Shown: piece by piece, positions 1,783 through 25,837 of the stretch
Numbering within the stretch: position 1 is the first letter of the stretch
How the letters are laid out: the number at the start of each line of letters is the position of its first letter
From: Bacteroidales bacterium
GTDB lineage: Bacteria; Bacteroidota; Bacteroidia; Bacteroidales; NBLH01
Length of the DNA: 64,000 nucleotides
Reading direction: 5' to 3'
NCBI GenBank assembly: GCA_016937695.1
Contig: JAFGWC010000046.1
Span: forward strand, 1-64,000
Notes under the pieces: generated by a model
What the model saw: the letters and a program-made list of their open reading frames with translations, nothing else
Databases searched by the model: none
What the model was told of the DNA's origin: nothing
Translations under genes and position numbers: made by a program

Positions 1783-3063
1783 ATGTTAAAACAAATTCGA
1801 AGAAAAATATACAACAGTTCAAAAATTATTGGCGACCGCTTTGGATTTGATTTGCCTTATTATGTTGAAAATGGGTTTTGGCTCAGTTTATCAAAAATTA
1901 TTGAACTTGCATTTGGAGTTGCTATATCTGTGTTTTTTGCCAGATTTACAACTCTCGAAATCTACGGACAATATAATTTGCTAATTTCTATTTTAGCAAT
2001 TTTATCAATTCTTTCAGCTCCAGGATTAAGCGTTTCTGCATTAAGAGCTGTTGCAAAAGGAAATCATGGAGTTTATAAAAAAGCTGTAAATCTTAGATTT
2101 ATTTGGAGTTTAACAGGCATTCCTTTGCTTTTGTTAATTGGATTGTTGTATTTTTATTTCGACAGTAAAGCGATGAGCTACAGTATATTAGCTTCTGCAT
2201 TACTATTTCCATTATTTTATTCTGTTAGCTCTTGGCCAATTATTTTTCAGGGAAAAGAAAAATTCAATAAATTTTCAAAATTTGAAGTTATAAGAGTAAT
2301 TTTATCGTCATCATTAATAATTGGCGTAATTTACTTAGGCGTTGAATCAATATTTCCTGTTTTTATTACTTATCTTATTGTGAATTCAGCATTAAATTTT
2401 ATTTTTTATTTTTTAAGCTTAAAAGAAATAGAAAATGATAAAATTGATAATGTTTGGAAATCAAGTGGTTACAAGCTTACTTTTTTGAAATTTATTTCTT
2501 TAGCTTATGATTATATCGATAAACTGATTATTGGGTTTTTTCTTGGTCCGGAAAAATTAGCCGTTTATGCAATTGCAGTTGGAATTAGTTCGTATTTAAG
2601 ACAAATAAACGGAATTGCAACCCGCGTTATTATGCCAAAACTTTTTAAAATATCTAAAAATTATTTTAAAGATATTTTTAAAAAACTGCTTGCAATTTTC
2701 TCTTTATCATCAGTTTTAGTTTCAATTTTGATGTTTTTTATACTTCCTTTTCTAATTACATTTTTGTATTCTAACAAGTATTTTGAATCGATATTTTATG
2801 CTCAATTGTATTTAATAACAATTCCATTTTACTCAATATCAACTATTTACCAATTAGGAATGATATATTTAGAAGAAGAAACCGATTTATCTAAAATAAA
2901 AATTTTTTCAATAATAATTAACTTAATTTTGTATTTTATTCTAATTCCATATTTCGAGTTAGTTGGAGCTATTGTAGCTTCTGTTATTTATTTTTTAATA
3001 TTGGATATAATTTTTGTTTTTAAATTTAAAAAGATTTATAAATATAAACTTTCAAATAAGTAA
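1783..3063 (+). CDS. Wzx-like polysaccharide/oligosaccharide flippase
   Basis: A 426-residue polytopic membrane protein with about twelve hydrophobic segments, the length and layout of the MOP/MVF polysaccharide transporter superfamily (Wzx, RfbX). Such proteins flip undecaprenyl-linked oligosaccharides across the inner membrane. Typical features are the N-terminal stretch leading into a first helix around residues 30-50 and charged loops such as FQGKEKFNKFSKFEVIR near residue 165. It lies 4 bp after the YfhO-like gene and its stop overlaps the ATG of the sulfotransferase gene, so the three form one transcription unit at the edge of a glycan locus. The substrate cannot be read from the sequence. 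Confidence 0.85.
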   Translation: MLKQIRRKIYNSSKIIGDRFGFDLPYYVENGFWLSLSKIIELAFGVAISVFFARFTTLEIYGQYNLLISILAILSILSAPGLSVSALRAVAKGNHGVYKKAVNLRFIWSLTGIPLLLLIGLLYFYFDSKAMSYSILASALLFPLFYSVSSWPIIFQGKEKFNKFSKFEVIRVILSSSLIIGVIYLGVESIFPVFITYLIVNSALNFIFYFLSLKEIENDKIDNVWKSSGYKLTFLKFISLAYDYIDKLIIGFFLGPEKLAVYAIAVGISSYLRQINGIATRVIMPKLFKISKNYFKDIFKKLLAIFSLSSVLVSILMFFILPFLITFLYSNKYFESIFYAQLYLITIPFYSISTIYQLGMIYLEEETDLSKIKIFSIIINLILYFILIPYFELVGAIVASVIYFLILDIIFVFKFKKIYKYKLSNK

Positions 3064-4001
3064 TGAAACCAAATCTTTTTATTGTTGGAATGCCCAAAGC
3101 AGGAACAAGCGCTTTATATTTTTTTTTAAAGCAACATCCCGAAATTTTTATGTCAGAAGATAAAGAACCAAATTATTTTTGTGCTGATTTAATCGAAGAA
3201 AGCGATAATTTTCATAAACGTAAATTTGAAGATTTTAGATATAGAAATGAAAAATCGTATTTAAAACTGTTTGAAAATAAAGATAAATTTAAAATTGCAG
3301 GCGAAGCTTCAACACAATATCTTTTTTCGAAAAAAGCAGCCGAAAATATTTATAATTTTAATACAAAAGCAAAAATTATAATTATAATTCGAGAACCAGT
3401 AAGTTTTTTGTATTCGTATCATTCTCAATTACTTAGAAATGTAAGAGAAAATATATTAGACTTTAAAAAGGCATTGGAATTTGAACCCGAAAGAAAAAAA
3501 TTAAATAAATATCCAAGTAATGTTAGATTTCCATCACAATTGCATTATACCGATTGGATTGATTATAAATCGTAGATTAACAGATATTTACAATGTTTTC
3601 CGAAAGAAAATATTAAAATTTTGATTTTTGAAGAATATAAAAAAGATAATTTAAAATATTATAAACAAATTTTAGATTTTTTAGGTGTAAATAATAGTTT
3701 TATTTTTGAATTTAAGGAAGTTAACGCAAATTTAGAAGTTAGAAATATTTATATAAAAAGCTTTTTTATAAAATTTACACGATTTGTAATAAAAACAGCT
3801 AAATTATTTTTTCCTGAAAAACTGGCTAAAAAAATTGAACCTGCATATTACAAAATTATTTCAAAAATAACGGTAAAAAAAGCATCACGAAAAAAAATAA
3901 ACGAAGAATTAAAAATAAAATTAAAACAAAAATATAAAAATAATGTTTTTGATTGTCAGCAATTTATAGATAAAAACCTATTTGAAATTTGGAAATATTA
4001 A
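3063..4001 (+). pseudogene. Sulfotransferase, interrupted by one in-frame TAG
   Basis: The N-terminal part (3063-3575) has the PAPS 5'-phosphosulfate loop GMPKAGTSALYFFLKQHPE and the 3'-phosphate segment IIIIREPVSFLYSYHSQ of sulfotransferases that modify carbohydrates. A TAG at 3573-3575 ends this ORF. The same frame then continues without a stop to 4001, through NRYLQCFPKENIKILIFEEYKKD, which is the expected downstream sulfotransferase sequence. Full length would be 312 codons, normal for the family. One point mutation (for example CAG or AAG to TAG) explains the break; a sequencing error or readthrough is possible. TAG is a normal stop elsewhere here (arsR, ricT), so recoding is unlikely. 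The intact gene at 10381-11229 could supply a similar activity. Confidence 0.85.
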
Positions 4002-7721: not shown

Positions 7722-8387
7722 CTATTGTTTTTTTAAAAGAATAATAATATTTCTATCAATAAGGTTTTTATTTATTTTTCTTAAAATTTTTAAAATCAAT
7801 AGTTTTAACGATTTGATATTTAAATGATTATGTTCGCTTTCGATTATTGAAACCTTAAAATTAAATTTTTGGGCTCTGTATTTTATAAAATCAATTGCTT
7901 CGGAGAAAGAAAAAAACCAACGATGCCTGTCATCAGGCTTTTCAAGAGGTAAACCGTAAAATTTAATATGCTTACCAAATTGCTTTTGAGTTTCAATATT
8001 TTTAGAGTATTTTTTAGCTAAAAAAAAATCCGGGATATTTGCGTAAGCATTTGGTAATGTGATAATTATGTTTTTATTTGAAACTCTGCATAATTCATCA
8101 AAAATTAAATGAATGTTTTCTAAATGTTCAAGCACATCGGCACAAACAATTGTATCAAAACTATTATCGTTAAAAGGCAATTTTTCTATTTTATCAAGAT
8201 TTAAAAAAACATCAGGTTTTCCGGCAATGTCAATTCCTGTGTAATTTATGTTTTTTGAGATAAAGTTTTTTAAATCAGCATTATAACAACCAATATCTAA
8301 AAGGTTTTTTGAGTCTGATATTTCAGATTCAAATCTTTTTGCAAGCCATTTGCTTCTTTCTTCTCTATTTTTATAAAACCAATTCAT
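7722..8387 (-). CDS. Class I SAM-dependent methyltransferase
   Basis: A 221-residue methyltransferase. SAM motif I is NLLDIGCYNADL (about residues 29-40), an acidic residue follows in YTGIDIAGKPDV, and the segment TIVCADVLEHLENI is typical of Methyltransf_11 enzymes. A C-terminal basic region is present. It is the last gene of the long - strand unit that starts at 20010, 3 bp after the next methyltransferase gene (8391-9227), and it converges on the DUF4143 ATPase gene. It probably methylates a glycan or lipid precursor; the substrate is unknown. Confidence 0.8.
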   Translation of the reverse strand: MNWFYKNREERSKWLAKRFESEISDSKNLLDIGCYNADLKNFISKNINYTGIDIAGKPDVFLNLDKIEKLPFNDNSFDTIVCADVLEHLENIHLIFDELCRVSNKNIIITLPNAYANIPDFFLAKKYSKNIETQKQFGKHIKFYGLPLEKPDDRHRWFFSFSEAIDFIKYRAQKFNFKVSIIESEHNHLNIKSLKLLILKILRKINKNLIDRNIIILLKKQ

Positions 8388-8390
8388 TTT

Positions 8391-9227
8391 TTATTTTTTT
8401 GGATAGGCAATTCCGTATAAATTTCGGAAACTGACTTCATGTTTTTTGAATATTTTCTGTGTTTTTTTATTGAAATCGTATAATTGCGAAACTTCAATTA
8501 TTTTATTTTCAAATCCGGCTCTTTCTAAAATGTTTTTTAATCTGCTTTTAGTCAGTGGATTACAGTGTGCAAAATTTTTAATTCTTTCTTTTTGAGTTTT
8601 GCCTTTAAAAAGAATTAACAAAATGTCTATTTTTTTAGCATATATTTTTGTAAGGTTTAAAAATGCTTTTTTTCCTAAAAAAGAGAATAAAATTAATGGA
8701 AATCGAACTAATTTATTTTGAAAAAACAAGTAATCGTATTGAGTTGGAAAAGTATGATAAATTAAAACTCCATTTTCTGATAATCTGCTTTTTATTGATT
8801 GCAAAAATGCGCCAATTTCGTCATCGTGAAGATGTTCGAAAATATCAAAACAAACAGCAATATCTATTTTATTGTTAAAATCAATATTTTGAGAAATATC
8901 GCCACAAATGAATTTAGCCTTAATGTTCTCTTCTTCAGCTAGTTGCTTTGCTATGTTTATTGCGTCATTATCAAAATCAATTCCAATAGCATTAAATCCG
9001 TTTTTTGCAGTTTCTAATGCAAAAGTTCCTATTGAACAACCAATATCAACAATAGTTATATCTTTTTTCTGTTTTCCTTCAAAATTTGGTAAAACATTGT
9101 TTAACAGTGTATTAAAAATTTCAATTCGATATTTCCAATGATTTGTTTCTCTGTTTTTGTATTTTTCAACTTGTTTGTTTTGATAATCATTTCCATATTG
9201 AAATGATGTAGTTTTTATATGATTCAT
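8391..9227 (-). CDS. Class I SAM-dependent methyltransferase
   Basis: A 278-residue methyltransferase with motif I IVDIGCSIGTFALETA near residue 65, the acidic motif IGIDFDNDAINIA, and CFDIFEHLHDDEIG near residue 130. The C-terminal half is basic and aromatic, a common feature of enzymes acting on sugar nucleotides or lipids. Its ATG overlaps the stop of the glycosyltransferase gene at 9227-10378 by one base, so the two are translationally coupled. Neighbours place it in surface-glycan synthesis; the substrate is unknown. Confidence 0.8.
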   Translation of the reverse strand: MNHIKTTSFQYGNDYQNKQVEKYKNRETNHWKYRIEIFNTLLNNVLPNFEGKQKKDITIVDIGCSIGTFALETAKNGFNAIGIDFDNDAINIAKQLAEEENIKAKFICGDISQNIDFNNKIDIAVCFDIFEHLHDDEIGAFLQSIKSRLSENGVLIYHTFPTQYDYLFFQNKLVRFPLILFSFLGKKAFLNLTKIYAKKIDILLILFKGKTQKERIKNFAHCNPLTKSRLKNILERAGFENKIIEVSQLYDFNKKTQKIFKKHEVSFRNLYGIAYPKK

Positions 9228-10378
9228 TAGTTAATTTGCTTATTTTGAGTTATTTGATAAATTCTTGAACTGAAACTTTCTAAAGAATGATTTTCTTTTG
9301 CCGAAATTAAGGCATTTTTTGAAAAATCGATTAATTTATTTTTATCAGAAATTAAATTTATTATTTTTTCTTTTAAATCTTCTGAATTATTAGATTCAAA
9401 AATGTAACCGTTTTTTCCGTTTTCGATATAGCATTTTGTTCCATTTTCGGTAGAACAAATAACAGGTAATCCAAAAGCTAAAGCTTCAACAGGCGAATAT
9501 GCAGCAGGTTCTTTAAAGCTTGGTAAAATAAATAAATCGTGGCTTTTGTATTCTTCAAGGGTTTGCCGATAATCAAAATTAGTTTTTATTTCTATAAATT
9601 TAGATATATTATTTTCTTTTAAAAAATCATTAATCTCATTAAAGTACTCATTATCAGACTTTTCGCCTATAAATGTAAGCTTAATTTTGTAATTATTTTT
9701 TATAAGCTGATTTACTGTTTTTAATAACAAAATTTGGTTTTTTCGTTTTACAAATTTTCCGATAGATAGAATTTTAATGTAATCTGTATTTAAGTTTTTG
9801 TTATCAATATTTTGATTTGGAAAAACAAAAGGAATGTAAAATACATTTTTGATTCCAAAATTTTTAAAAGCTTCATAATTTGATTTTATTGGAGTTATAA
9901 ATGAATGAACGCCAAGAAATTTGAATAATTTGATATTTAATTTAAAAAGAAATTTTGAACCTTTTATATGCGTATAAGGAGTTTGTGTTAGCATTAAAAC
10001 CTTAATATTAAGCAGTTTAGATATAATTAAAGTTTTAAGTGCTAAATTGTTTTGATAAGCTTTTAAAATAATAAAATCAGGATTAAAAGATTTAATAATT
10101 TTAATAATTTTTAATTGCGGACTTTGAATTCTTAATTCAAAATCAGATTTTAAATTTGATTTTTTTAGGAATGAACTGATTTTTAAAACTATTTTGCTAA
10201 AAATAGATAAGCTAATAGTTTCAATATCAATATTTTGGTAGAATTCTGACTTGCCTTTGTATAAAACCAAAACTTTTACTTTATTACCATCGTTTTGCAA
10301 TGCAATAGCTCGATAGTACAAATTTGTATGAAAGCGTGGTGCAATTATTAAAAATTTATGTTTTTCCTGAATATCCAA
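9227..10378 (-). CDS. Glycosyltransferase, family 4 (GT-B)
   Basis: A 383-residue GT-B enzyme. The donor half begins near KILSIGKFVKRKNQ (about residue 205). The loop LPSFKEPAAYSPVEALAFG contains the E-x7-E motif of retaining family 4 enzymes (EPAAYSPVE). The N-terminal domain is basic, as in membrane-associated glycosyltransferases. It lies 2 bp after the sulfotransferase at 10381-11229 and overlaps the next methyltransferase. It probably adds one sugar to the repeat unit; donor and acceptor cannot be read. Confidence 0.83.
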   Translation of the reverse strand: MDIQEKHKFLIIAPRFHTNLYYRAIALQNDGNKVKVLVLYKGKSEFYQNIDIETISLSIFSKIVLKISSFLKKSNLKSDFELRIQSPQLKIIKIIKSFNPDFIILKAYQNNLALKTLIISKLLNIKVLMLTQTPYTHIKGSKFLFKLNIKLFKFLGVHSFITPIKSNYEAFKNFGIKNVFYIPFVFPNQNIDNKNLNTDYIKILSIGKFVKRKNQILLLKTVNQLIKNNYKIKLTFIGEKSDNEYFNEINDFLKENNISKFIEIKTNFDYRQTLEEYKSHDLFILPSFKEPAAYSPVEALAFGLPVICSTENGTKCYIENGKNGYIFESNNSEDLKEKIINLISDKNKLIDFSKNALISAKENHSLESFSSRIYQITQNKQIN

Positions 10379-10380
10379 AT

Positions 10381-11229
10381 CTAAATTTTATTTAAAACAT
10401 CATTTAATATAAACTTCTGATTTTCAGTAAGTTCTTTTTCCAATTTGTAATTTGTATTTCTGATTTTTTGTTTTTTTATAAATTTATTAAATGGTTTTGA
10501 TTTTTTAATTTCAGTAAATTCAAGCATTTTATTAAATTCTTGTACAGGATTTTCGCAAATATCTTCGTAATTTATTTCAAGAAATTGATTTTGATTTAAT
10601 TTGTTAACTGCCTTATTTATAGCATTATCCATAATTTTATAATTAATTGCGGCAAGTGCTACAAATGATTTATCGTGTTTTTCCCATTCTACTTTCTGTT
10701 CTTCGGTTAAATTTCCCCATCGCCAATTATTTGGCCCTTCCCAACCTTTCCAAAAGTAAACATTTAAAAATGAGTTAGTTACAGCGCGCGAATCTCTTTT
10801 TATATGAATGAATTTAGCATCAGGAAATATTTTTAAAATATAACCAATTCTTGGCCAGCCGGTTATTTTTATAAGTAAGCGATTTCTTTTTTTTGTTAGT
10901 GTTTTACTAAAAATTTTCGGTATTGTTTCTTTAACCTTTACTGTTAGGTCATTTTCTGTTAAATCGCGAAATGGTTTACTAAAACCTTTTGCATAATTTT
11001 CCCAAAACTGATATGATTCTGTTGGAATAATATATTTTTTTAAAATTGTTCCAATTATCGGTAAATCAATTAATTGCATGTAAAGCTTGTTTAAACGAAT
11101 TTTTGAGGGAAATACACTTAATAATACCGAAAACCAAGTTAAATTTGGATGATTGCATAAAATTTCATGAACCATTGTTGTTCCGCTTCGGCCTGTTCCT
11201 ATTATAAAAATTGGTTTTTCTATATGCAT
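10381..11229 (-). CDS. Sulfotransferase (PAPS-dependent)
   Basis: A 282-residue protein with the 5'-phosphosulfate loop FIIGTGRSGTTMVHEIL (about residues 8-24) and the 3'-phosphate-binding segment FIHIKRDSRAVTNSFL (about 137-152), as in the Sulfotransfer_3 family. A conserved NYEDICENPVQEF motif follows near residue 213. It should transfer sulfate from PAPS to a hydroxyl group, here probably on a glycan. Its start overlaps the stop of the 11220-12341 glycosyltransferase by 10 bp. Together with the broken sulfotransferase at 3063-4001 it suggests a sulfated surface polysaccharide; no PAPS-synthesis genes are in the window. Confidence 0.85.
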   Translation of the reverse strand: MHIEKPIFIIGTGRSGTTMVHEILCNHPNLTWFSVLLSVFPSKIRLNKLYMQLIDLPIIGTILKKYIIPTESYQFWENYAKGFSKPFRDLTENDLTVKVKETIPKIFSKTLTKKRNRLLIKITGWPRIGYILKIFPDAKFIHIKRDSRAVTNSFLNVYFWKGWEGPNNWRWGNLTEEQKVEWEKHDKSFVALAAINYKIMDNAINKAVNKLNQNQFLEINYEDICENPVQEFNKMLEFTEIKKSKPFNKFIKKQKIRNTNYKLEKELTENQKFILNDVLNKI

Positions 11230-12341
11230 TGGCTTATAATTTTTTCAAATTTTATTACAATTTTATTCAAATCATGTTGATTTTCAAGATATTGACGAAG
11301 ATTTTCTCCTAATTGTTGCATTTTAGAATTATCATTTAATAGATAATTTATTTTTTCAGTCATTTTTAAAAAATCATTATTACAAAAATAACCGCAATTA
11401 TATTCTGTTAAAAAATTATCCGGATTTACATTTAATGAAATAATTGGGGTTTTTGCTGCTGCTGCTTGTAAAAAAGTGTTTGGATAACCTTCAGATTCAG
11501 AGGTGTTTACAAACAATTTAGATTCGTTGAAATATTTTTGAATTTCAAAAAATGGAACATTATCTATAAAATTCAGGTTTTTTATATTGTAAGCTTTTTG
11601 TTTAAATTTATTCCATTCTTCAAGATTTTTATCAGAATACGGACAAATCATAGTAAATTTTTCATCAGTAAATTCAGTGGCAAGTTTTAAAAATAAATCA
11701 GGATTTTTCCAATTTACAAAACGCCCAACCCAAAGTATCGATTTTTTTTCTGTTTGTTGATATTTGTTGATTATAAAAGCATTTTTTATTACTTCAGCTT
11801 CTATTTTATGATTTTTGGAGAGTAAATTTTTGTGTTCAATGCTTTGATTAATAACTTTATCTGCATTATACAAGCCATATTTATAAATATTTCCAACAAT
11901 TCCGTTAGTGTTTATCCAAGCTAAATTTACATCATTTAAATGTGCCGTTCTGTGAATGTGTTTTTTATTGAATATTTTTGAGTAAAGAGCTGTAAATCCG
12001 ACAGTTGCATGTGCAGCGGTTGTTATAATTATATCCGGATTTATTTTTATCAGCAATAAAAAATATGAAATTGATTTAATAAATTTACTGAAAATAGACT
12101 CTTTTTGCAATAATTTAAAGCTTTTAAAAACAGTAATATTTTCAAACTTTTCAATTTTTTTTTGACCATAATCAGCAACAATAAAATCGATAATATAATT
12201 TTTATTTTTAGATAATTTATTGGCTATTAGATACATCTGCAATTCGGCGCCGCCAAAAACATCAGAATAATTTTTTTTAAACAGCGGAAAAGCAGCCGGA
12301 GCAAAAAAACAAACTTTTATTTTATGTGTGTTTCGTACCAC
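11220..12341 (-). CDS. Glycosyltransferase, family 4 (GT-B)
   Basis: A 373-residue GT-B enzyme. The N-terminal FGGAELQMYLIANKL is the acceptor-side motif often seen in capsule glycosyltransferases. The donor side has ILWVGRFVNWKNPDLF (about residue 203) and SESEGYPNTFLQAAAA. It is clearly paralogous to the 14180-15286 protein: both have VADYGQKKIE / VADFGQKPIE near residue 60 and a similar donor domain, suggesting an old duplication with a changed acceptor. Its start overlaps the end of asnB by 25 bp. Confidence 0.83.
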   Translation of the reverse strand: MVRNTHKIKVCFFAPAAFPLFKKNYSDVFGGAELQMYLIANKLSKNKNYIIDFIVADYGQKKIEKFENITVFKSFKLLQKESIFSKFIKSISYFLLLIKINPDIIITTAAHATVGFTALYSKIFNKKHIHRTAHLNDVNLAWINTNGIVGNIYKYGLYNADKVINQSIEHKNLLSKNHKIEAEVIKNAFIINKYQQTEKKSILWVGRFVNWKNPDLFLKLATEFTDEKFTMICPYSDKNLEEWNKFKQKAYNIKNLNFIDNVPFFEIQKYFNESKLFVNTSESEGYPNTFLQAAAAKTPIISLNVNPDNFLTEYNCGYFCNNDFLKMTEKINYLLNDNSKMQQLGENLRQYLENQHDLNKIVIKFEKIISQCI

Positions 12342-14173
12342 TTATTAAACATTATTAAATTCCAAAAAACATGCGAATAGTCTGAAATGCCTTCTTGGTG
12401 ACTTTTCCATAATTTTTCAACAATGGTTTTATTGTAATAATCGAATGCTGAAAATCCAAAAATTATATCTTCTGTATATTTTTTCAGCTCTTTTTTGTAA
12501 TAATATTTTAACGGAACACCAAAACCTTTTTTTTCTCTGAATAATATTTCATCAGGTAAAATACCTTTTAATGTTTGTTTTAATAAATATTTTCCTGTTT
12601 TTCCTTTCAATTTTAATGAAGAATTTAAACTGTTTACATAGTTAACAAGCTCATAATCAAGGAATGGCATTCTGCCTTCGATACTGTTTGCCATTGTTGC
12701 TCTGTCTTCTTTAACCAATAAATCGTCAGGCAAATATATATTTTGTTCAAAGTTTAAAACATTATGTAATTTATCTTTATAAATGAAATATTTTGTAAGA
12801 TAATTTAGCTTTTCTATATCAATTTTATATTCATTTTCTACTCTAAATGCATTGCTAAATAATTTCAGATATAATTGATTTTGAGGTGATTGCAGAAGAA
12901 TTTTTAATTTTGAAACTCTGTCATTATCATTAGAAATTATAGAATAAGATTTTGCAATAATATTTTTAATTTGGCTTGGCAATTTGTTTATTTGAGATAA
13001 TATTTTGTATTCATAATATCTTTGATAACCTGCAAAAATTTCATCGCTTCCTGTTCCTGAAAGTACAACTTTTACATGTTCGGCAGCTACTTTAGAAACA
13101 AGATATGTTGGTATTAAAGACGAATCGCCCAAAGGCTCGTCAAAATAATATGGCATAATATCTATTAATTCGCGAACATCGTTAGCCGAAAAGTTAATTT
13201 GGTAATGCTCTGTATTAAATTTATCAGAAATTATTTTTGCCTTATCTGCTTCGTTAAATTCCTGATAATCAAAGCTTATAGAAAAAGTTTTAAGATCTTT
13301 TACGTATTTGCGCATAAAATAAACAATTGCAGAACTATCTATTCCGCCCGATAAAAAAGCTCCAATAGGAACATCGGCTAAAAGCCTTCTTTTTACTGAT
13401 TTTTCTAATAAATTGTAAACGTTTTCTTTAGCTGTTTTTATGTCGATATTTTTGTTGTCGAAATTTATTTTGTAATAATTATGTTTATTTTTTATTTGTT
13501 TTTTGTTTAAATCGTAAATTAAATTTTCGCCTGGTTCTATTTTTTTAATTTTATTAAGTATAGATTGATTTTTAGGAGTAATTCCAAACATCAGATAGTA
13601 ATTAAGCGAATCAGTATTTATTTGTTTTTCAATGCCGTAATCAAAAAAAACTTTCATTTCAGAACCAAACACAAAAGTCTCATTATCAGCATAATAATAT
13701 AAAGGTTTTTGTCCAAATCTGTCTCTGGAAAGAAATAATTCTGATTTTTTTTTATCGTAAATACAAAAAGCCCACATGCCGTTAAAATAGTTTACGGCAT
13801 CTTTTCCAAATTCATTGTATGCAGCTAAAACAAGTTCTGTATCGCTGTTTGTTGTAAAAGTATAGCCAATTTCTGATAGTTTGGTTTTTATTTCTTTAAA
13901 ATTGTAAATTTCGCCGTTAAATACGATTCCGATGTTTGCTTTTTCAATTAATTTTGGATTTATTTTTTTAGAACAAGCGCCGTTTTGTGCAGAATAAAAC
14001 ATTGGTTGATTTGCAGAATTGCTTAAATCAATAATTGAAAGTCGAGTTTGACCAAGACTAACAAAATCATCGCAGAAAATACCTTTCGTATCTGGTCCGC
14101 GATGAGCCAAATTGCTTAAAATTTTCCCGATTTTAGATTCATTATTGCCTGTAAATCCTGCTATTCCACACAT
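12317..14173 (-). CDS. asnB: Asparagine synthase (glutamine-hydrolysing) type amidotransferase
   Basis: A 618-residue protein of normal AsnB length. It begins MCGIAGFTG, so Cys2 is the glutaminase nucleophile once Met1 is removed. The N-terminal class II amidotransferase domain contains HRGPDTKG and FNGEIYNF. The C-terminal synthetase domain has the ATP-pyrophosphatase P-loop LSGGIDSSAIVYF near residue 270, then LSGTGSDEIFAGY. AsnB converts aspartate to asparagine with glutamine and ATP, but paralogues inside polysaccharide loci are thought to amidate sugar acids or related acceptors. Placement between two glycosyltransferase genes supports this second role, which remains an inference. Confidence 0.9.
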   Translation of the reverse strand: MCGIAGFTGNNESKIGKILSNLAHRGPDTKGIFCDDFVSLGQTRLSIIDLSNSANQPMFYSAQNGACSKKINPKLIEKANIGIVFNGEIYNFKEIKTKLSEIGYTFTTNSDTELVLAAYNEFGKDAVNYFNGMWAFCIYDKKKSELFLSRDRFGQKPLYYYADNETFVFGSEMKVFFDYGIEKQINTDSLNYYLMFGITPKNQSILNKIKKIEPGENLIYDLNKKQIKNKHNYYKINFDNKNIDIKTAKENVYNLLEKSVKRRLLADVPIGAFLSGGIDSSAIVYFMRKYVKDLKTFSISFDYQEFNEADKAKIISDKFNTEHYQINFSANDVRELIDIMPYYFDEPLGDSSLIPTYLVSKVAAEHVKVVLSGTGSDEIFAGYQRYYEYKILSQINKLPSQIKNIIAKSYSIISNDNDRVSKLKILLQSPQNQLYLKLFSNAFRVENEYKIDIEKLNYLTKYFIYKDKLHNVLNFEQNIYLPDDLLVKEDRATMANSIEGRMPFLDYELVNYVNSLNSSLKLKGKTGKYLLKQTLKGILPDEILFREKKGFGVPLKYYYKKELKKYTEDIIFGFSAFDYYNKTIVEKLWKSHQEGISDYSHVFWNLIMFNKWYETHIK

Positions 14174-14179
14174 TTTATA

Positions 14180-15286
14180 TTAGTTTTTTAATAGAATTTC
14201 ATTTGTAAATTTTGTAATGATTTTTTCTTTATTATGATTTTCTATTAAATAATTTAAGGCATTTGTTGCAAATTTTGTTCTTAAATCAACATTATTTATA
14301 ATTTTTTCAAAATACTCATAAAATAATTTAGAATTATTGTTTGCACAAAAACCAATTTCGTATTTACTAAAAATATTATCAGGATTTATATTTAAGCTTA
14401 AAACAGGACAATAATTAGCCATTGCCTCTGCCATTGTGTTCGAGAAACCTTCTGTATATGAAGTGATTACATATGCTTTTGCTGATTTATAATAATCAGT
14501 TATTTTATCGGGCGAAACATATTCAATATGTTTCAGGTTTTTTATATTTTGTATTGATTTTTTAAATTCTAGTCCAAATTTTTCGTCTTCTTTTATAACA
14601 GGTGCAATCATTATAAAATTTTCTTCTGGAAATTTTTTTGCCAATTCTGAGTAAAAATACGGTTGTTTTACTTTGTCGAGGCGTCCAATCCATATAATAT
14701 GTTTTTTTTTAGATTGCTTAATGTCTTGAATATCAGTAATATTTACAATATTGTGTATTATTGAATTTGGAATAATATTTCTGTTTTTTTTGAATAAATT
14801 ATATTGTGTTTCGGTTTGTGATGTTAACATATTACTAAATTTATAAGCCAAAGGCATAAAAACGGCAGTTAAAAAACCCGACATTTTTTTTAAATCTTTA
14901 AACAAAGTTTCAGAATTGCTGGCAATCATGTAAATAGTTTTTTTCTTTAATAAGAAACGTACTGAAAATAAGGCAATTGCTGTTCCAAAATCTGCCGAAC
15001 GGAAAATATATTTATCGGCATTAATTTTTTTTAGGGTTTTTATTAATTTTAAAAAGCCTTTTATTCTATTTTCTGTTGGTTTAAATGAGCGCCAAAGTGT
15101 TGATTTATTGATTGTTTCTATTGGTTTTTGTCCAAAATCGGCAACACAAAAATTAACATCAAAGTTATTGTTTTTTGAAAGTTCTGTGCCTAAATAATAA
15201 ATTTGTCTTTCTGCGCCTCCTGCATTATTTGTTATTTCTGTGTTGAAATAAATATAAACTCTTGGTACAACAAAACAAATTTTCAT
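14180..15286 (-). CDS. Glycosyltransferase, family 4 (GT-B)
   Basis: A 368-residue GT-B enzyme. The N-terminal motif is NNAGGAERQIYYLG and the donor domain has HIIWIGRLDKVKQPYF (about residue 194) and TSYTEGFSNTMAEAMANYCP with its conserved glutamates. It resembles the 11220-12341 enzyme along its whole length. It lies 6 bp upstream of asnB and 14 bp after the large GT-C gene, within the same - strand unit. The donor sugar is unknown. Confidence 0.83.
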   Translation of the reverse strand: MKICFVVPRVYIYFNTEITNNAGGAERQIYYLGTELSKNNNFDVNFCVADFGQKPIETINKSTLWRSFKPTENRIKGFLKLIKTLKKINADKYIFRSADFGTAIALFSVRFLLKKKTIYMIASNSETLFKDLKKMSGFLTAVFMPLAYKFSNMLTSQTETQYNLFKKNRNIIPNSIIHNIVNITDIQDIKQSKKKHIIWIGRLDKVKQPYFYSELAKKFPEENFIMIAPVIKEDEKFGLEFKKSIQNIKNLKHIEYVSPDKITDYYKSAKAYVITSYTEGFSNTMAEAMANYCPVLSLNINPDNIFSKYEIGFCANNNSKLFYEYFEKIINNVDLRTKFATNALNYLIENHNKEKIITKFTNEILLKN

Positions 15287-15300
15287 AAAACTATGGATTT

Positions 15301-17925
15301 CTAAAATCTTTTTTTCCAGAAATAAATTGGGTTAAAATATCTGTCGTTTGATATTAATTTTTCTACAAATGAATTATTTCCATTTATATAAATTGAATTA
15401 ATTTGCTGATTATTAGGAATATAGTCGTAAATTCTTACGCCGTCTAAATTACCTTTGAATTTAAGATTTACTTTAAATTTAACAAATTCATTTCTGGAGA
15501 AAGGAATTAAATTGCTGTCGATTTTTTTATTATCGATATATAAACCAAATTCAGCACCTTTTTCGCCTGATTGCTGATAATAAATAATATTATGCCATTT
15601 ATTGTCTTTTATATTGTTTGTTTCTACAAATATATCGTCATTTTTATCAGAATAAATAATTTTAAAACCTAAATCTGTTTCTTTCAATCTGATTAAATTA
15701 GTTAAAGAATCGCCAACAAAAATAAATGGAACATCGTTTGTTTTTTTTGTCATTTTTATCCAAAATGAAAAAGCGTATTGGTTCGATATTTTAAGATTTC
15801 CGCAAGGAACGTTAATTGTTTTATTAAACGAATCTTTAGAAATTATCATGTCTTTTGTATATCTAAAAACTTCTACATTTGTTTTATCAATTCCATATCC
15901 GTGAATTTTTTTAAAATTTTGGTTTACATAGTAATTTATTAAAGTGTCGATATGCATTTCATTTTGAGTATCCCAAATAATCCAGCCTGAATTGTACTGA
16001 TTTATGTTTTGAAAAAATCCTTTTTTATGTTTTAATTTTTTACTTAAATAACTGTCAAATTTGAATAATCTATTTCTTCGCATATCAATAAAAACAGCTG
16101 ATGTATCAATTCCTTTAAAATAATAATGAATTGGATATTGATAAAAAACAGCTTCGCCTTTTTGGTAGTTTTCAACTATTTCTTTGTATGCAATTGAAGG
16201 AACAGAAGGCGAACCAAAATTTTCGACATAAATATCATTATATCTTTGATTAAAATGAATTAAGGAACTTGCTATTATTGTTAAGGAAATTAAAATTACA
16301 ATGTATTTATTAAACAATGCTCTTGATATTAAAATTAAAATGTACAGTGTTAAAAATATTACAATTGGCGCCAAAAAAGATATATATCTGAACGAAATTA
16401 CATAAGTTATTATATATACAAACATTATAAAAATAAAAGCTGTGAAGATATAGAAATAGGCAATATTGTTTTTTATAATTTTATTTTTTACGATATAAAT
16501 TAAATTAATACCCAAAAGCAATATTATTAAAGCAAATTCTTTTGAAATTGGGTAAAAGTTGAATAAATCGATATAAATATAATTTCTACTTTCAAAAAAA
16601 GACATTACATGAGTAGGAATATATCTTGGAATAATTAAAACTGTAGTTACTGATATTATAAATCCTAAAATTAATGCAGTATAATATTTTTTTTCTTTTT
16701 CAGCTATAGCTAAATATATTATTGTTAGATATATTGAAGGAAGTGTAAAAACTGAACTTTTATGAATATAGTAACCTAAAAATACTAATGCAATAAATAG
16801 AATTAGGTAATAAAAATTAAAGTCTAAGTATTTGTATATGAAATCATTAACTTTTTTATTTTTGAAATCAATGCTGTTTTTTTCTGTAAGTCCTTTATAA
16901 ACAATAGTAAACTGAAACAGAAAAAAAGGAATTAAAATTCCATACATTCTTGTCCACCTAAAAAGTACAATTTCTTCGGGATGAAAAATAAATGCCAATA
17001 AAATTAAAAGTGCTATTGCCTTGTTTTTAAAGAAAAATTTTAGGACAAAATATCCTAGAAAAACAAATAATATTCCTGCAATTACAGAAATTATTCTCGA
17101 CGACCATTCCGAAACACCAAATATTTTATACGATTGTGCCACAAGCCATAAATGCGGAAAATTTCTGTCAAAACTTTCATTCGGATATGGTTTTTCTTTT
17201 ATAAAATTCCATTGTTGAAATTTTCCTGTATGATAATATCCTGCTGCGCCTTGTGTTACTTGTTTTTCATCAGACCAAAAATCAAATTTATCTAATTGAT
17301 AAAGTAATATTGTTGATGAAATTCCACTAATTAATATTAAACCAATTATGTAAATTGCGCCTTCTTGTTTTATTCTATAAATTATTTTTGATATTAAATT
17401 ATTTTTAATTTCTTCAGGAATAGGCTTTTTTTCAGAATTTTTAATGTCATTATTAATTATTTTATTTATTTCATTCCTGCTAAGCCAAATTGAAATTACG
17501 CCAAAAATTAATGTTGGTGCGTAAAAAAAGCTTATTATTAAATTAAATTTAACCAGATTTTCTGTTTGGCTGATTGTTAAATCTTGTGTAAATATTAATG
17601 CACGAAAAATATTTATAAATATCAGCAATAAAAAACTTATGTTTGCAATTTTTCTTGAGCGTTTTTTTTCGTATAAACCTATAATTATAAAAATATCAAA
17701 AGAAACGATTAAACTTGAAAAAGGAAAAATCCATTGTGCAATTTCATATTTACTTATTAATGAAATTAATGGCGAAAAATAGTTGAAAATAAAAAAGGAA
17801 ATTATTGAAATAATAATCCCAATTGGTAATTTATGTTTATCAAAAACAATCGTGTTTTTTTTCTTTACAGCGTTAATCTTCTGATTATCAGCGTTTCTTA
17901 TTGTTCGTTTCGATTTCTGTTTCAA
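15301..17925 (-). CDS. GT-C glycosyltransferase (family 39-like) with C-terminal LamG-like domain
   Basis: This is an 874-residue protein in three parts. Residues ~30-150 form an extra N-terminal membrane block of about four helices. Residues ~190-560 form a GT-C core with the first-loop acidic motif DFWSDE at 215-220 and a long RNFPHLWLVAQSYKIFG segment, as in ArnT/protein-mannosyltransferase relatives that use polyprenyl-phosphate sugars. Residues ~708-845 look like a LamG/concanavalin-like beta-sandwich (AFSFWIKM, KWHNIIYYQQ, GLYIDNKKID, GNLDGVRIYDY). That domain would be extracytoplasmic and could bind the glycan. Its start overlaps the upstream glycosyltransferase gene by 4 bp. The GT2 enzyme at 19090-20010 is the likely donor maker. 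Confidence 0.78.
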   Translation of the reverse strand: MKQKSKRTIRNADNQKINAVKKKNTIVFDKHKLPIGIIISIISFFIFNYFSPLISLISKYEIAQWIFPFSSLIVSFDIFIIIGLYEKKRSRKIANISFLLLIFINIFRALIFTQDLTISQTENLVKFNLIISFFYAPTLIFGVISIWLSRNEINKIINNDIKNSEKKPIPEEIKNNLISKIIYRIKQEGAIYIIGLILISGISSTILLYQLDKFDFWSDEKQVTQGAAGYYHTGKFQQWNFIKEKPYPNESFDRNFPHLWLVAQSYKIFGVSEWSSRIISVIAGILFVFLGYFVLKFFFKNKAIALLILLAFIFHPEEIVLFRWTRMYGILIPFFLFQFTIVYKGLTEKNSIDFKNKKVNDFIYKYLDFNFYYLILFIALVFLGYYIHKSSVFTLPSIYLTIIYLAIAEKEKKYYTALILGFIISVTTVLIIPRYIPTHVMSFFESRNYIYIDLFNFYPISKEFALIILLLGINLIYIVKNKIIKNNIAYFYIFTAFIFIMFVYIITYVISFRYISFLAPIVIFLTLYILILISRALFNKYIVILISLTIIASSLIHFNQRYNDIYVENFGSPSVPSIAYKEIVENYQKGEAVFYQYPIHYYFKGIDTSAVFIDMRRNRLFKFDSYLSKKLKHKKGFFQNINQYNSGWIIWDTQNEMHIDTLINYYVNQNFKKIHGYGIDKTNVEVFRYTKDMIISKDSFNKTINVPCGNLKISNQYAFSFWIKMTKKTNDVPFIFVGDSLTNLIRLKETDLGFKIIYSDKNDDIFVETNNIKDNKWHNIIYYQQSGEKGAEFGLYIDNKKIDSNLIPFSRNEFVKFKVNLKFKGNLDGVRIYDYIPNNQQINSIYINGNNSFVEKLISNDRYFNPIYFWKKRF

Positions 17926-19073
17926 TTTTTTTCAGTATTAATTTCACTCAAAAGTTTATCATATTGGGTTATGATATTATTCCAAGAATACATTTTTCTG
18001 AAATTTTCTAAAAATTCTTCGTTAATTTTATACGAATTTTTGAATTCAGTATTGTAAAAATTTTCAATTTTATTTGCTAAAATAAAAGAATCTTTAAAAT
18101 TATAAAAATCGCCGTTTACTCCTTTTTTTATTATGTCTGTGTTTCCGCTAACAGGCGTTGATAAAATATAAACTCCAGAGAATAAAGATTCTAAAGCAGA
18201 AATTGAAAAAGCTTCAAATCGTGAGCTAATTACTTGCATGTGAGACGATTGGTATTCTTCTGCGATTTCTTCTTTCGAAATCCAACCTTTAAATTTTATT
18301 ATTTCTGATAAATTATTTTTTTTCACATAATTTTCAGCCTTTTCTTTTAAAGGTCCATCGCCTAAAATATTTACAGTAAATTCTATATTTCTTTTGCTTA
18401 GCATATTTATAGCCTCAAGAAAAACAAATGGCTCTTTAACATCAGCTAATCTACCAACATAAATTATTTTAAAATTTTTTGAGCGTTTTGAATAATCAGG
18501 AAAAAAAAGTTTTTCATTACTGCCGTTTGGGATAACAATACTTTTATCGCCAGATTTTAAAAACTTATCGAGTTTTAATTTTAAATAATTTGTTAATACA
18601 ATGTTATTTAACGAATTAGCGAAAATCAATTTTAAAAAATAATATGTGAAAATATGATATTTTAACATCACCTTTTTGTTTAAAAAAGGAATATCTTCGC
18701 CATGAGAAATTATAATATATGGTATTTTGTATTTTAATTTTAAAAAATAAGCAACTAATCCGCCTGGTATTGCATAATGCGATAAGCACAAATCATAATT
18801 TATTTCAGTTTTGGATTTTAAATACTTTATAGCATGAAAAACCCACGAAAGCATTTCAATTGGATTTGATTTGTATATAAATCGGCGTTTAGATTTTAAT
18901 CTAACAATTTTTAAATTATTTTTTGTTTCGATTTCGGCTTCGCCTTTATACCAAGTTGATATAACAGTAACATTGTGTCCTTTTTCTGCTAAACCTTTGG
19001 CATGATATTGAGAAACAACACCGGCGCCGCCTCCTAATGGCGGATATTCATAATTTAAAATTAAAATTTTCAC
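17922..19073 (-). CDS. Glycosyltransferase, family 4 (GT-B)
   Basis: A 383-residue enzyme starting MKILILNYEYPPLGGGAG, a classic N-terminus of family 4 glycosyltransferases of the PimB/WecG-like group. The donor domain has IIYVGRLADVKEPFVFL near residue 202 and SSRFEAFSISALESLFSG with the E-x7-E pattern. It overlaps the GT-C gene by 4 bp and is 16 bp from the GT2 gene, so it is co-transcribed with them. It adds a sugar to the growing surface glycan; specificity is unknown. Confidence 0.84.
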   Translation of the reverse strand: MKILILNYEYPPLGGGAGVVSQYHAKGLAEKGHNVTVISTWYKGEAEIETKNNLKIVRLKSKRRFIYKSNPIEMLSWVFHAIKYLKSKTEINYDLCLSHYAIPGGLVAYFLKLKYKIPYIIISHGEDIPFLNKKVMLKYHIFTYYFLKLIFANSLNNIVLTNYLKLKLDKFLKSGDKSIVIPNGSNEKLFFPDYSKRSKNFKIIYVGRLADVKEPFVFLEAINMLSKRNIEFTVNILGDGPLKEKAENYVKKNNLSEIIKFKGWISKEEIAEEYQSSHMQVISSRFEAFSISALESLFSGVYILSTPVSGNTDIIKKGVNGDFYNFKDSFILANKIENFYNTEFKNSYKINEEFLENFRKMYSWNNIITQYDKLLSEINTEKN

Positions 19074-19089
19074 AAAAAATGTATTTTAT

Positions 19090-20010
19090 TTAAAGATTAT
19101 ATTTTTCTTTAATAATGTATAATGGTCTGGATCTCACCTCATTATATATTTTACCAATATATTCGCCAATTATCCAAAAAAGTATAAACATAAAACCCAT
19201 AAATATAAAAATTACAACAATAAGCCATTTATATAAATGATAATATGCGCCATTTATTAAAAAATCACCTATTTGATATAATAATAAGCCAAAACCACTA
19301 ATAGTGCTAATCATGCCAAGATAAAAGCCTAATCTGAGAGGAAGAACAGAAAAATTTAACATTCCATCCATTCCAAGGCTTGCCAGTTTAGATAAAGAAT
19401 ATCCGGATTCTCCATCTTTTCTGTCGGGACGATAAAAATCTACAAATGTATGCTTAAAGCCTGTCCAGGCAACCATTCCACGCAAATATCTTGACAATTC
19501 AGGCATATTATTTAATTCCAATAATACTTTTTTATCAATTAATCTAAAATCGCCAACGTTTCTTGGAATATCAATTAATGAAAATTTGCTGAAAATTCTG
19601 TAATATATTTTTGAACCTATTTTTTTAAACCAATTATCTTTTCTAAAGTTTAATCTTCTTGCATATACAATATCAAATCCGTTTTTCCACTCAAGTATCA
19701 TGTTTTCAATTACTTCCGGCGGATCTTGCAAATCGCAATCCATAGTTATTATCGCATCGCCTTTCGCTATTTTTAAACCTGCTGTTAAAGCTGCTTGATG
19801 TCCAAAATTTCTGCTAAAATCTATAATTTTAACTTTTTTATTTTCATTTGCTAGATTTTTAAGTTCTTCCAATGTATTATCAAAACTTCCATCGTTAATA
19901 AAAATAATCTCAAAGTCATTGTTTTTATTACTTTCCAGATTTTTTATTTTCTGATAAATGATTCTTACGTTTTTTTCTTCGTTAAATGCAGGTATTATAA
20001 ATGAAAACAT
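19090..20010 (-). CDS. Polyprenyl-phosphate glycosyltransferase, GT2 (DPM1/GtrB/ArnC-like)
   Basis: A 306-residue protein. The GT-A domain starts FSFIIPAFNEEKNVRIIY, with the metal-binding DCDLQDPPE near residue 95 and NVGDFRLIDKKV near 155. Two C-terminal membrane helices (about 225-290) follow, the layout of GtrB/ArnC enzymes that load a sugar onto undecaprenyl phosphate on the cytoplasmic side. The product is the donor for GT-C enzymes, and a GT-C gene follows two genes later. It is the first gene of the long unit running to 7722. Confidence 0.87.
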   Translation of the reverse strand: MFSFIIPAFNEEKNVRIIYQKIKNLESNKNNDFEIIFINDGSFDNTLEELKNLANENKKVKIIDFSRNFGHQAALTAGLKIAKGDAIITMDCDLQDPPEVIENMILEWKNGFDIVYARRLNFRKDNWFKKIGSKIYYRIFSKFSLIDIPRNVGDFRLIDKKVLLELNNMPELSRYLRGMVAWTGFKHTFVDFYRPDRKDGESGYSLSKLASLGMDGMLNFSVLPLRLGFYLGMISTISGFGLLLYQIGDFLINGAYYHLYKWLIVVIFIFMGFMFILFWIIGEYIGKIYNEVRSRPLYIIKEKYNL

Positions 20011-23264: not shown

Positions 23265-23298
23265 AAAAAAGGCTGTTTTTTAAGACGGCCTTTTTTTT
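23263..23298. terminator. Bidirectional terminator between mgsA and glmS
   Basis: An A run, the stem GGCTGT / ACGGCC (one G-U pair), an 8-nt loop and a T run form a symmetrical terminator between convergent genes. It includes the stop codons of both genes. Confidence 0.8.
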
Positions 23299-25837
23299 AA
23301 TCAACTGTTATTGACTTAGATACATTTTTTGGAACATCAGGATGAACTCCATGATTTTCTATTTTATTTTTGTTTAAATATTTTCTTTTTGTAATAGACA
23401 TATTTAATGCTAAAAGCTGTAAAGCAAGCGTTGCTTCAAAAACAAAAATAAATTTATCGCCTGTTTTAGGTATTCTTATATATTTATTAAAATATTGTTC
23501 TTGTCCAGATGGTTTTCCTTCAATTGCTTTTCTTAAATCTTCATCTTCTTCGGCAATTAAAATAATATCGGCGCCTCTTATTTTATGCGTGTGAATTTGC
23601 GAAATTGTTATTCTTTTGTCTCTTTCGTCAGGTGGACAAATAAAAACAAGTGGATAATTTGAAAAATAATCTTCAATATTAATATGTTCTGTATAATTTT
23701 TATATGCTTTTTGATAAATCTTTCTTTCTTCTTTGCTTTCAAAATTTCCTTTCAAAATTTCTGCTCCATAATCGCTAAATTTAAAATTTTTCATCAATGA
23801 AATAAAGGATTTTATTTGTTTATCATTTTTAAATTCCTGATTATAAATATCATTAAAATAAGTTAACAGATTTGTATGCAGTTTTTCTAAATCATTAAAA
23901 GAATAAATTGTATTTTTGCCTAAAATCGTATTTGGACCGTGTTTAAATTCAGCAGAATCGTAACCTTCTGTGTGATTTAAAACTACTTCTCTTATCTTTA
24001 ATGCGCCTTCTTTTGCTATACCAATTAACGAAGTGCCTAAAATATGAATAGATGGCTTTAAAAACAATTTTAAAACAACTTCTATTATATCTTCTTCAAT
24101 ATTTTTGATAGTAAAATCCATAAAATGCCTTATTTTACCCAATTTATTCTTAATGTCTTCGTCGGTATAGCTCATGCTTAGCGCGATTAATTTAAAAAGA
24201 GCTATTTGGCTGATAAAAGATTTTGTTGCTGCAACAGCTATTTCAGAGCCGCAAAGTATTGGTAAGTAAAAGTCCGATTTTTCTTGTGGGATTGTCGAAT
24301 TTTCATTGTTTACAACCGAAATCAATTTTATTTTGCTAAATCTATTTTTGATATCTGTAAAAATATCAACTAAATCTTTGGTTTCGCCAGATTGACTAAC
24401 ACCAATTAAAATATCTTTTTCCTGTACAGATGCAAGATAAAACGACCTGAACATTCCCGGATTTGCTACAATTACCGAAAGTTCTTGAATATTATTGAAA
24501 AACACAGCCGCTGTTAATGCTGCATGATAAGAAGTGCCTGAGGCAACAATATATACTCTTGCTCCTTTTTCTTTTGCTTTTTTTAATATATCAACTGTTT
24601 GATTCTTGTATTTTATTATTGTTCTTTTCTTTTTCCATATTATCATTAAATCCAATACAAAAAGTTTCATAAAATATTCTTCGCCAAAACCTAAAAGCTC
24701 ATTTAACAATGGTGTTTCTTCTGATGTAAAACCAATTGATTTTGAGTTTTTTAGTGTATTCTCATTGTTTTTGCTTATTAATTCGTAAACATTTAAAAAG
24801 TCTGTATTATTAATTATCTTTAAAAAAACTTTTTCTAACTCTTTAGGATCAAAAATATCATAAAGCTTTACTAAATCATACAATAAAGCTCTGCACGATT
24901 TATAATTATCTTCGAAAATTGCATGAAATTTCTTTTCTTCAGTTTCGGTCAAATAATATTTCATTATAATATCAAGATTTGCCGATGAAGTATAAATTTC
25001 TTGTTCCATATAATAATTAAACCTTGGCTGAAGCGCAATGTCCTGAATGTTTAATCTCGAACGTTTTAAACCTGGCTTGTGTTCTTTGTCGCCACTAACA
25101 GAAAAAACCAAATAATCTTTATGTGTAAAATAAATTGCTTCTCCTTCAGAAAGTGGAATTAAAAATCTTGTTTTAGATAATACAGAAGTTAAATCTGAGC
25201 TTATAACAATAAAATCGCCATTAGCATCTTTACCTTTTCCTGCATAAAGCGACGAACCAGATTTTATTGCAAAAATACCAGGAATATCGGGCGATGAAAC
25301 ACATGCAGCATACGAACCAACTGCTTTATTTTCGGCGAGTTTAATAGCTTCTTTAAAATAATTTACTTTATCTTTTTCGCTCGCCGATTTTTTTGATTTT
25401 AGTATTTGAGAATAATAATGCTCAATCAAATGCACCAGCATTTCACCATCGTTATCTGATAAAACAACATGTCCGTGTTCAACTAAAAACTCTTTTAAAG
25501 TATCTGTGTTTGAAATGTTGCCATTATGTGCACCAATTATATGTGCAGAACAATTAACTTCGTGAGGCTGAGCATTTTCATCGGTAACAGAACCATAAGT
25601 AGCCCATCTAACCTGACCAATAAATTTTTTTCCGCTACGTTTACCAATTTCCAGTTCTTCTGTTACAACAGATGGTGCACCAACTTTCTTTATTAAAACA
25701 ATATTGCCGTTTTCTGTGATAAACGAAGCGCCTGTACTGTCATAACCTCTGTATTCAAGCTTTTTTAAAAGGAAACATGCTTCATTTCCAATATTTTTAT
25801 TGTCATTTTCATATATTATAGCTACTACACCGCACAT
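23297..25837 (-). CDS. glmS: Glutamine-fructose-6-phosphate aminotransferase (isomerising), long form
   Basis: The protein has 846 residues, against about 610 for typical GlmS. It starts MCGVVAIIYE (Cys2 glutaminase nucleophile), with RWATYG and HNGNISN in the class II amidotransferase domain (1-230). The EIYTSSANL segment before the isomerase half is at ~280, followed by ~130 residues absent from usual GlmS. SIS1 begins near 427 with ASGTSYHAA and SQSGET (491-496). SIS2 has the FKHGPN motif but carries a further insert of ~80 residues. The C-terminal end VPKNVSKSITVD is the normal GlmS tail. It should make glucosamine-6-phosphate for peptidoglycan and LPS, unless this long form is a paralogue with another sugar substrate. 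Confidence 0.85.
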   Translation of the reverse strand: MCGVVAIIYENDNKNIGNEACFLLKKLEYRGYDSTGASFITENGNIVLIKKVGAPSVVTEELEIGKRSGKKFIGQVRWATYGSVTDENAQPHEVNCSAHIIGAHNGNISNTDTLKEFLVEHGHVVLSDNDGEMLVHLIEHYYSQILKSKKSASEKDKVNYFKEAIKLAENKAVGSYAACVSSPDIPGIFAIKSGSSLYAGKGKDANGDFIVISSDLTSVLSKTRFLIPLSEGEAIYFTHKDYLVFSVSGDKEHKPGLKRSRLNIQDIALQPRFNYYMEQEIYTSSANLDIIMKYYLTETEEKKFHAIFEDNYKSCRALLYDLVKLYDIFDPKELEKVFLKIINNTDFLNVYELISKNNENTLKNSKSIGFTSEETPLLNELLGFGEEYFMKLFVLDLMIIWKKKRTIIKYKNQTVDILKKAKEKGARVYIVASGTSYHAALTAAVFFNNIQELSVIVANPGMFRSFYLASVQEKDILIGVSQSGETKDLVDIFTDIKNRFSKIKLISVVNNENSTIPQEKSDFYLPILCGSEIAVAATKSFISQIALFKLIALSMSYTDEDIKNKLGKIRHFMDFTIKNIEEDIIEVVLKLFLKPSIHILGTSLIGIAKEGALKIREVVLNHTEGYDSAEFKHGPNTILGKNTIYSFNDLEKLHTNLLTYFNDIYNQEFKNDKQIKSFISLMKNFKFSDYGAEILKGNFESKEERKIYQKAYKNYTEHINIEDYFSNYPLVFICPPDERDKRITISQIHTHKIRGADIILIAEEDEDLRKAIEGKPSGQEQYFNKYIRIPKTGDKFIFVFEATLALQLLALNMSITKRKYLNKNKIENHGVHPDVPKNVSKSITVD

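Follow-up and report, generated by a model that had tools for sequence, protein, structure and literature searches.

Why should a membrane-embedded GT-C glycosyltransferase of a Bacteroidales bacterium end in a LamG domain, and which partner would this domain contact? The question is raised by an 874-amino-acid protein encoded in the window (the whole stretch of 64,000 nucleotides analysed here, from the start of contig JAFGWC010000046.1), in which the first-pass annotation had noticed a GT-C enzyme carrying an additional N-terminal membrane block and a C-terminal beta-sandwich of about 140 residues. Using a combination of methods (Pfam and NCBIfam matches, structure modelling and superposition, alignment and tree of the relatives, and locus comparison), we propose that this protein is a polyprenyl-phosphate-sugar-dependent GT-C of the outer face of the inner membrane, that its donor is made by a neighbouring GT2 protein and then flipped, and that its periplasmic LamG domain contacts the acceptor glycan, a proposal that we hold at about even confidence. 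The features on which the argument rests are collected in Table 1.

Table 1. Position of the GT-C gene, its domains and the neighbouring genes in the window (residues are numbered on the GT-C protein)
Feature	Position	Strand	Basis
GT-C glycosyltransferase with C-terminal LamG/pentraxin-type domain, 874 aa	15301-17925	-	Pfam, relatives' alignment, model, structure match
Extra N-terminal membrane block, residues 33-164	17434-17829	-	model and hydrophobic segments
GT-C membrane core, residues 189-570	16216-17361	-	PMT_2; STT3, PMT and ArnT fold matches
Asp219-Glu220, first outer loop, presumed catalytic	17266-17271	-	invariant in 18/18 aligned sequences
Periplasmic mixed alpha/beta domain, residues 571-691	15853-16215	-	model, conservation, structure match
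LamG/pentraxin-type module and C-terminal Trp-basic tail, residues 692-874	15304-15852	-	Pfam 702-842; structure matches
GT2, ArnC/PgfS-like, presumed polyprenyl-phosphate sugar synthase	19090-20010	-	domain and NCBIfam-type matches, relatives' loci
GT4 glycosyltransferase; stop overlaps GT-C start	17922-19073	-	Pfam
GT4 glycosyltransferase; homologue near 10/12 relatives' genes	14180-15286	-	Pfam, locus comparison
Asparagine-synthase-like amidotransferase	12317-14173	-	Pfam
GT4 glycosyltransferase	11220-12341	-	Pfam, locus comparison
Sulfotransferase	10381-11229	-	Pfam
GT4 glycosyltransferase	9227-10378	-	Pfam, locus comparison
Two methyltransferases (7722-8387 and 8391-9227)	7722-9227	-	Pfam
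Flippase type (Polysacc_synt), candidate exporter of donor or repeat unit	1783-3063	+	domain match
YfhO-family membrane protein, beside the flippase	33-1778	+	domain match
Second sulfotransferase-family protein	3063-3575	+	domain match

Domain layout and folds of the GT-C protein

The open reading frame begins with a TTG codon, which matches the start position in the relatives and, within the letters TTGA, overlaps the stop codon (TGA) of the GT4 gene upstream. Both parts of the fusion were recognised by Pfam above the curated cut-offs, namely PMT_2 (residues 258-342, E 4.6e-6) and Laminin_G_3 (residues 702-842, E 5.9e-9), and NCBIfam gave no match to the protein at E 0.01. The whole-protein AlphaFold2 model, calculated from the 18-row alignment described below, has a mean pLDDT of 83.5 and a pTM of 0.79. 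The ten-residue pLDDT means are 67-95 over residues 701-870 and 49-64 up to residue 90, so that the start of the N-terminal membrane block is poorly modelled, and the basic N-terminus also has low model confidence. The membrane block itself, as the first-pass annotation held, is an addition to the usual layout: four hydrophobic segments (33-51, 66-84, 93-111 and 129-147) precede the first GT-C helix (190-208), the helices of the block reaching residue 164. By a simple count, such segments number one to four in the relatives. A chance fusion or an assembly artefact was rejected, since relatives at 25-45% identity, from other assemblies, have the same layout.

The membrane core has the GT-C fold, as judged from PMT_2 above its cut-off and from the best structure matches (Z 20-23, to STT3, PMT and ArnT). 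The core and the mixed alpha/beta domain (residues 182-692) superpose on yeast STT3 (Z 23.4, 406 aligned residues, rmsd 4.6), residues 190-693 superpose on ArnT, a GT83 enzyme, with bound undecaprenyl phosphate (Z 21.2), and the alignment with PMT (Z 21.5) covers the core only. The mixed domain, which stands separately between the membrane core and LamG, is thus part of the region aligned with STT3 and ArnT. The model also gives matches of the same kind to the AftA, AftB and Emb folds, and the sequence match to ArnT is weak (E 0.012 over the 57 residues 251-307). Just after the first core helix, the first outer loop holds the acidic pair D219-E220, which is invariant, together with H258, R326, M327 and Y328, in all 18 rows of the alignment, and which we presume to be the catalytic site. 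The donors of GT-C enzymes are polyprenyl-linked and are used at the outer surface of the inner membrane; judging from the GT-C topology, the basic N-terminus and the first outer loop as the location of the acidic pair, the LamG domain would lie on the periplasmic side.

The C-terminal part was predicted to be a beta-sandwich, as anticipated in the first-pass annotation (strands from 708 to 870), and only its extent had to be refined, from about 140 residues to a domain running from about residue 706 to the C-terminus and including a final helix and short last strands. In the whole-protein model, residues 706-874 superpose on PTX3 (9k6u_A; Z 13.7, 154 aligned residues, rmsd 2.8), and the other pentraxin-type matches of this part include PAPP-A (Z 14.1) and NP1 (Z 13.5). 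The model of LamG alone matched PTX3 (8pvq; Z 15.1, 159 aligned residues, rmsd 3.2) and PAPP-A (Z 15.6). At the sequence level, the profile of the module gave a match at E 7.8e-11 to an S-layer domain protein and one at E 1.4e-8 to the arabinanase AbnA (domain 4), which Foldseek also found (3.8e-5). As the structure matches cover the full C-terminal part and are joined by these profile matches, the modelled fold is that of a complete jelly roll of the pentraxin/LamG type, the Trp-basic tail included. The likeness to pentraxins and LamG proteins resides in the fold of residues 706-874, last helix and strands included, whereas the identity is 6-18% in the pentraxin-type rows, and the calcium ligands of pentraxins have no evident conserved counterpart in the LamG domain of the GT-C family.

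Relatives, conservation and a second GT-C backbone

Against the objection foreseen in the first-pass annotation, that the domain order might be common and already characterised, few of the genomes searched have it: a strong match to the GT-C protein occurs in 7 of 393 genomes of the order, six further matches being short and weak, and in a draw of 395 genomes of the phylum the match at E 1e-20 is in the own genome only. The scan of the genome contigs kept 80 of 136 matches as loci, many of them short core matches, and the single-protein scan of the genome contigs gave no match. The 18-row alignment comprises the window protein and 17 of the 80 loci; it leaves out L032 (the N-terminal piece of the gene of L018, a row that is without its N-terminus because its contig begins there), L031 (cut by a contig end) and the weaker L034-L094. 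Twelve rows carry LamG (the window protein included), four end before it (L022, L026, L028 and L029), and the remaining two, L027 and L030, are truncated by the ends of their contigs. With L006, a thirteenth LamG-bearing protein outside this alignment, the total is 12 relatives and the window protein. The protein length and BLAST scores of L020 are the same as those of L007 (genome G208, from the order of the window). Pfam recognised LamG_3 in 9 of the 18 rows at E 0.1, and the domain has therefore drifted in some of them.

LamG and the two rows cut at contig ends were left out of the tree, whose 16 rows include long branches. Eleven LamG rows lie on one side of a single branch (99/99), while the twelfth, the long-branched L024, groups with the four LamG-less rows. 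The presence of LamG needs two changes on this tree, and there may have been a single gain or loss of the domain. The proposal of a recent fusion with a domain abundant in the genome was not supported, as PF13385 (LamG_3) matches only the GT-C protein in its own genome, where PMT_2 has five matches, four of them above the cut-off.

Domain conservation was calculated from 11 of the 18 rows (the seven truncated or LamG-less rows were left out). The mean pair identity is 0.45 for the core, 0.44 for the mixed domain, 0.31 for LamG and 0.27 for the N-terminal block, and the invariant positions number 31 of 382, 6 of 121, 3 of 151 and 0 of 156, respectively. Hence, by pair identity, LamG is more variable than the core and the mixed domain, yet it is not the most variable part. 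Over the 13 LamG-bearing proteins, Lys816 and Phe823 are invariant; the conserved positions are mostly hydrophobic, apart from Lys816, Arg831 and the Trp-basic tail, and several aromatics are kept. When calcium-site residues were looked for, no LamG column had D/E in 10 or more of the 13 rows. In all 13 rows, four columns (798, 828, 834 and 841) are limited to D/E/N/Q, although the motifs to which they belong are presumably typical of this fold.

In each of three pairs, the dN/dS of LamG indicates purifying selection (0.25, 0.15 and 0.23, the value of 0.15 resting on a saturated dS of 2.59). In the pair L019/L020, dS is 0.34 for the core against 2.59 for LamG, and the identity of the DNA, 0.79-0.96 up to about position 9350, drops to 0.48-0.78 over the remainder of the contig (L019:9350-10389). 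Because this drop continues past the end of the gene, the low-identity tract includes LamG but extends further, which led us to reject an exchange specific to the module. We read the abrupt drop as a recombined tract in the glycan locus, in this one pair.

Directly downstream of the first GT-C gene in L017, positions 10406-12730 encode a 775-residue GT-C (PMT_2, E 1.6e-15) with a LamG domain of its own (E 3.2e-6, just over the cut-off). By BLAST, the LamG domain and tail of this second backbone are related to the first family (to L024, E 1.2e-17), and its membrane part has no clear similarity to that family, one weak alignment with L006 spanning part of it (E 2.4e-5). Since both are PMT_2-type GT-Cs, the two cores may still descend from a distant common ancestor. 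Full-length homologues of the second backbone occur in two more genomes of the order, G178 and G075 (L159 and L160), and a shorter relative (G075:C363) matches residues 11-594 of the query only, ending without the module. A LamG-plus-tail profile recovered 10 places in 9 of 393 genomes, on both backbones, at E 9.4e-41 or better, with the next match at 1.5e-15, a gap to which the profile itself contributes, as members of both backbone groups went into it. Among the matches below the gap, 21 loci (L109-L129) were covered, and their longest frames contain zero or one hydrophobic segment, as in secreted proteins. A single-sequence search of the second module against the PDB gave no match. As a tentative and rather doubtful extension, LamG-plus-tail might be a portable acceptor-selecting adaptor of periplasmic GT-Cs in the glycan loci of the order, which is carried by at least two backbones without clear kinship, drifts faster than the core, and can be exchanged along with downstream glycan genes by recombination, the donor being kept while the acceptor changes.

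Gene neighbourhood and presumed donor supply

The GT-C gene stands third in a run of genes in the order GT2, GT4, GT-C, GT4, asparagine-synthase-like, GT4, sulfotransferase, GT4 and two methyltransferases. The two sulfotransferase-family proteins of the window, one in this run and one beside the flippase candidate, suggest a sulfated glycan. PgfS serves a protein glycosylation system, and the GT2 protein gave nearly full-length matches to both the ArnC and the PgfS models, below the equivalog cut-offs. It has two hydrophobic segments near its C-terminus, the TM count also being two in the homologues, and its sequence points to a putative polyprenyl-phosphate sugar synthase.

To what extent does this GT2 accompany the LamG-bearing GT-C? 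Thirteen LamG-bearing loci were compared (the window, L006, L015-L021, L023-L025 and L033, with L032 counted with L018), and GT2 is in the locus in nine of them, the eight copies outside the window being 67-72% identical to that of the window. In the L006 genome it lies on the same contig as the LamG GT-C (a tenth locus), in the L017 genome on another contig (68%), and the L024 genome has a 47% relative. The L015 genome has no GT2 match at E 1e-20, though its GT-C layout is the same. The best GT2 identity in the genomes of the four LamG-less relatives is 34%. At 60% or more identity, GT2 was found in 11 of 334 genomes, including four (G001, G002, G003 and G063) without a detected LamG GT-C, of which G001, G002 and G003 are assemblies in 660 or more contigs or otherwise incomplete.

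Concerning the transfer of the donor across the membrane, no GtrA was found in the genome. The flippase candidate lies 12 kb from the GT-C gene, on the opposite strand, and it could equally export repeat units. The YfhO family, represented next to it, is one that we take to be GT-C-like, and a YfhO relative adjoins the LamG-less GT-C in L029. Elsewhere in the window, Mur ligase domains are fused to alanine racemase domains in the protein encoded at 34310-36769, and positions 23297-25837 encode a protein of 846 aa that combines glutamine amidotransferase and SIS domains and is presumably longer than the usual GlmS. The 566-aa frame at 37946-39646 had no Pfam match at E 0.01.

Proposed pathway, precedents and alternatives

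In the pathway that we infer, the GT2 protein encoded at the head of the gene run would make an undecaprenyl-phosphate sugar in the cytoplasm, a flippase would turn it over, and the Asp219/Glu220 site would add the sugar, at the outer face of the inner membrane, to a glycan. This acceptor glycan would be built and decorated by the products of the neighbouring GT4, sulfotransferase, methyltransferase and amidotransferase genes, and the periplasmic pentraxin-type LamG domain would contact it and position it for decoration or extension.

Several known systems can be compared with this pathway. ArnT and ORF12 are GT-Cs with polyprenyl-linked donors, the acceptor of ArnT being lipid A (PMC11127046). 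ORF12, a GT136 enzyme of Citrobacter youngae, belongs to a three-component pentofuranose system comprising a polyprenyl-phosphate sugar synthase and a MATE-family flippase, and its C-terminal module binds LPS polysaccharide and was not essential under the conditions tested (PMC11127046). With its GT2 and its flippase candidate, the window locus looks like the three-component systems presented in that paper, and the two proteins, compared by description, are alike in being GT-Cs with a C-terminal beta-rich module (sugar-binding in ORF12) in a synthase-flippase pathway, a presumed one in the case of the window. They differ in that the ORF12 module is described as immunoglobulin-like, whereas that of the window is of the pentraxin/LamG type, and the sections on ORF12 describe no extra N-terminal TM block (PMC11127046). 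Similarly, EmbC (as well as EmbA/B and, according to the ORF12 paper, AftD) is a GT-C with a C-terminal lectin-like module binding the acceptor arabinan. In the EmbC study, single Trp changes at two C-terminal binding sites inhibited LAM extension, and the module weakly resembled known folds, CBM6 and CBM36 being among the top matches (PMC3044687); EmbC module mutants are also cited as making less and shorter arabinan (PMC11127046). Our model, in contrast, aligns with the Emb entries up to about residues 684-692 and not over LamG, and Emb modules do not appear among the matches listed for the LamG-only model, which need not mean that they are unlike it. As for ArnT, it shares the GT-C core with a periplasmic domain, but it is without LamG, and its 537-541 resolved residues leave no room for both extra parts.

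Since EmbC and ORF12 are already published as GT-Cs whose C-terminal sugar-binding modules have other folds, the design is less unusual than the first-pass annotation supposed. What appears new relative to the papers searched is that the module has a pentraxin-type fold, stands in this gene cluster and occurs on two GT-C backbones, the kind of protein itself being known. No description of LamG on a GT-C was found in the open-access literature, among the matches listed, in a search whose scope was LamG and not the pairing of pentraxin with GT-C, and proteins combining LamG and PMT_2 may already be listed in domain databases.

Since the EmbC and ORF12 modules bind acceptor glycans, contact with the acceptor is the most likely role of LamG. 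The lectin-like domain put forward in the first-pass annotation is reasonable in this respect, even if the ORF12 module, which binds LPS, proved dispensable under the conditions tested (PMC11127046). The fold and the precedents thus argue by analogy for a lectin function, which we keep as a prediction because no acidic column is strictly conserved. This lack of a strictly conserved LamG site would mean either that the site follows variable acceptors or that the domain is structural. Pentraxin and LamG folds bind proteins and lipids too, and LamG could be a structural or partner-binding element (for folding, dimerisation or docking to an envelope protein) instead of a lectin, the GT-C transferring without it for acceptor recognition. 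We think this possible, yet lean against it: the smaller share of invariant positions in LamG than in the core, the mostly hydrophobic nature of the conserved ones (besides Lys816, Arg831 and the tail), the family members without LamG and the working of ORF12 without its module (PMC11127046) are all in its favour, whereas the same module on a second GT-C backbone is in keeping with a portable function, D/E/N/Q are the only residues in four columns, and a binding site that tracks variable glycans may well lack conservation.

The first-pass annotation had also considered that the domain might recognise a glycoprotein acceptor or serve a processive enzyme. The former, with the cluster as a protein O-glycan locus, would fit PMT_2 and the resemblances to STT3, PMT and PgfS, but we judge it unlikely: matches of equal kind were obtained with ArnT, AftA, AftB and Emb, whose substrates are lipid A or polysaccharide, and the sulfotransferases, the amidotransferase and the several GT4s fit a surface polysaccharide too. 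A processive, length-controlling polymerisation conferred by LamG seems very improbable. It would recall the loss of LAM extension in the EmbC Trp mutants (PMC3044687) and the reduced, shorter arabinan of the module mutants (PMC11127046), but a GT2-made donor suits the decoration by a single sugar, as in ORF12 (PMC11127046).

We therefore retain, at the strength given above, a GT-C whose periplasmic LamG domain contacts the acceptor glycan. Together, these data would extend the small set of GT-Cs with C-terminal sugar-binding modules to another bacterial group and to a pentraxin-type fold, and the natural comparisons that the family offers (proteins with LamG, proteins without LamG, and two backbones) allow asking whether such modules choose the acceptor.
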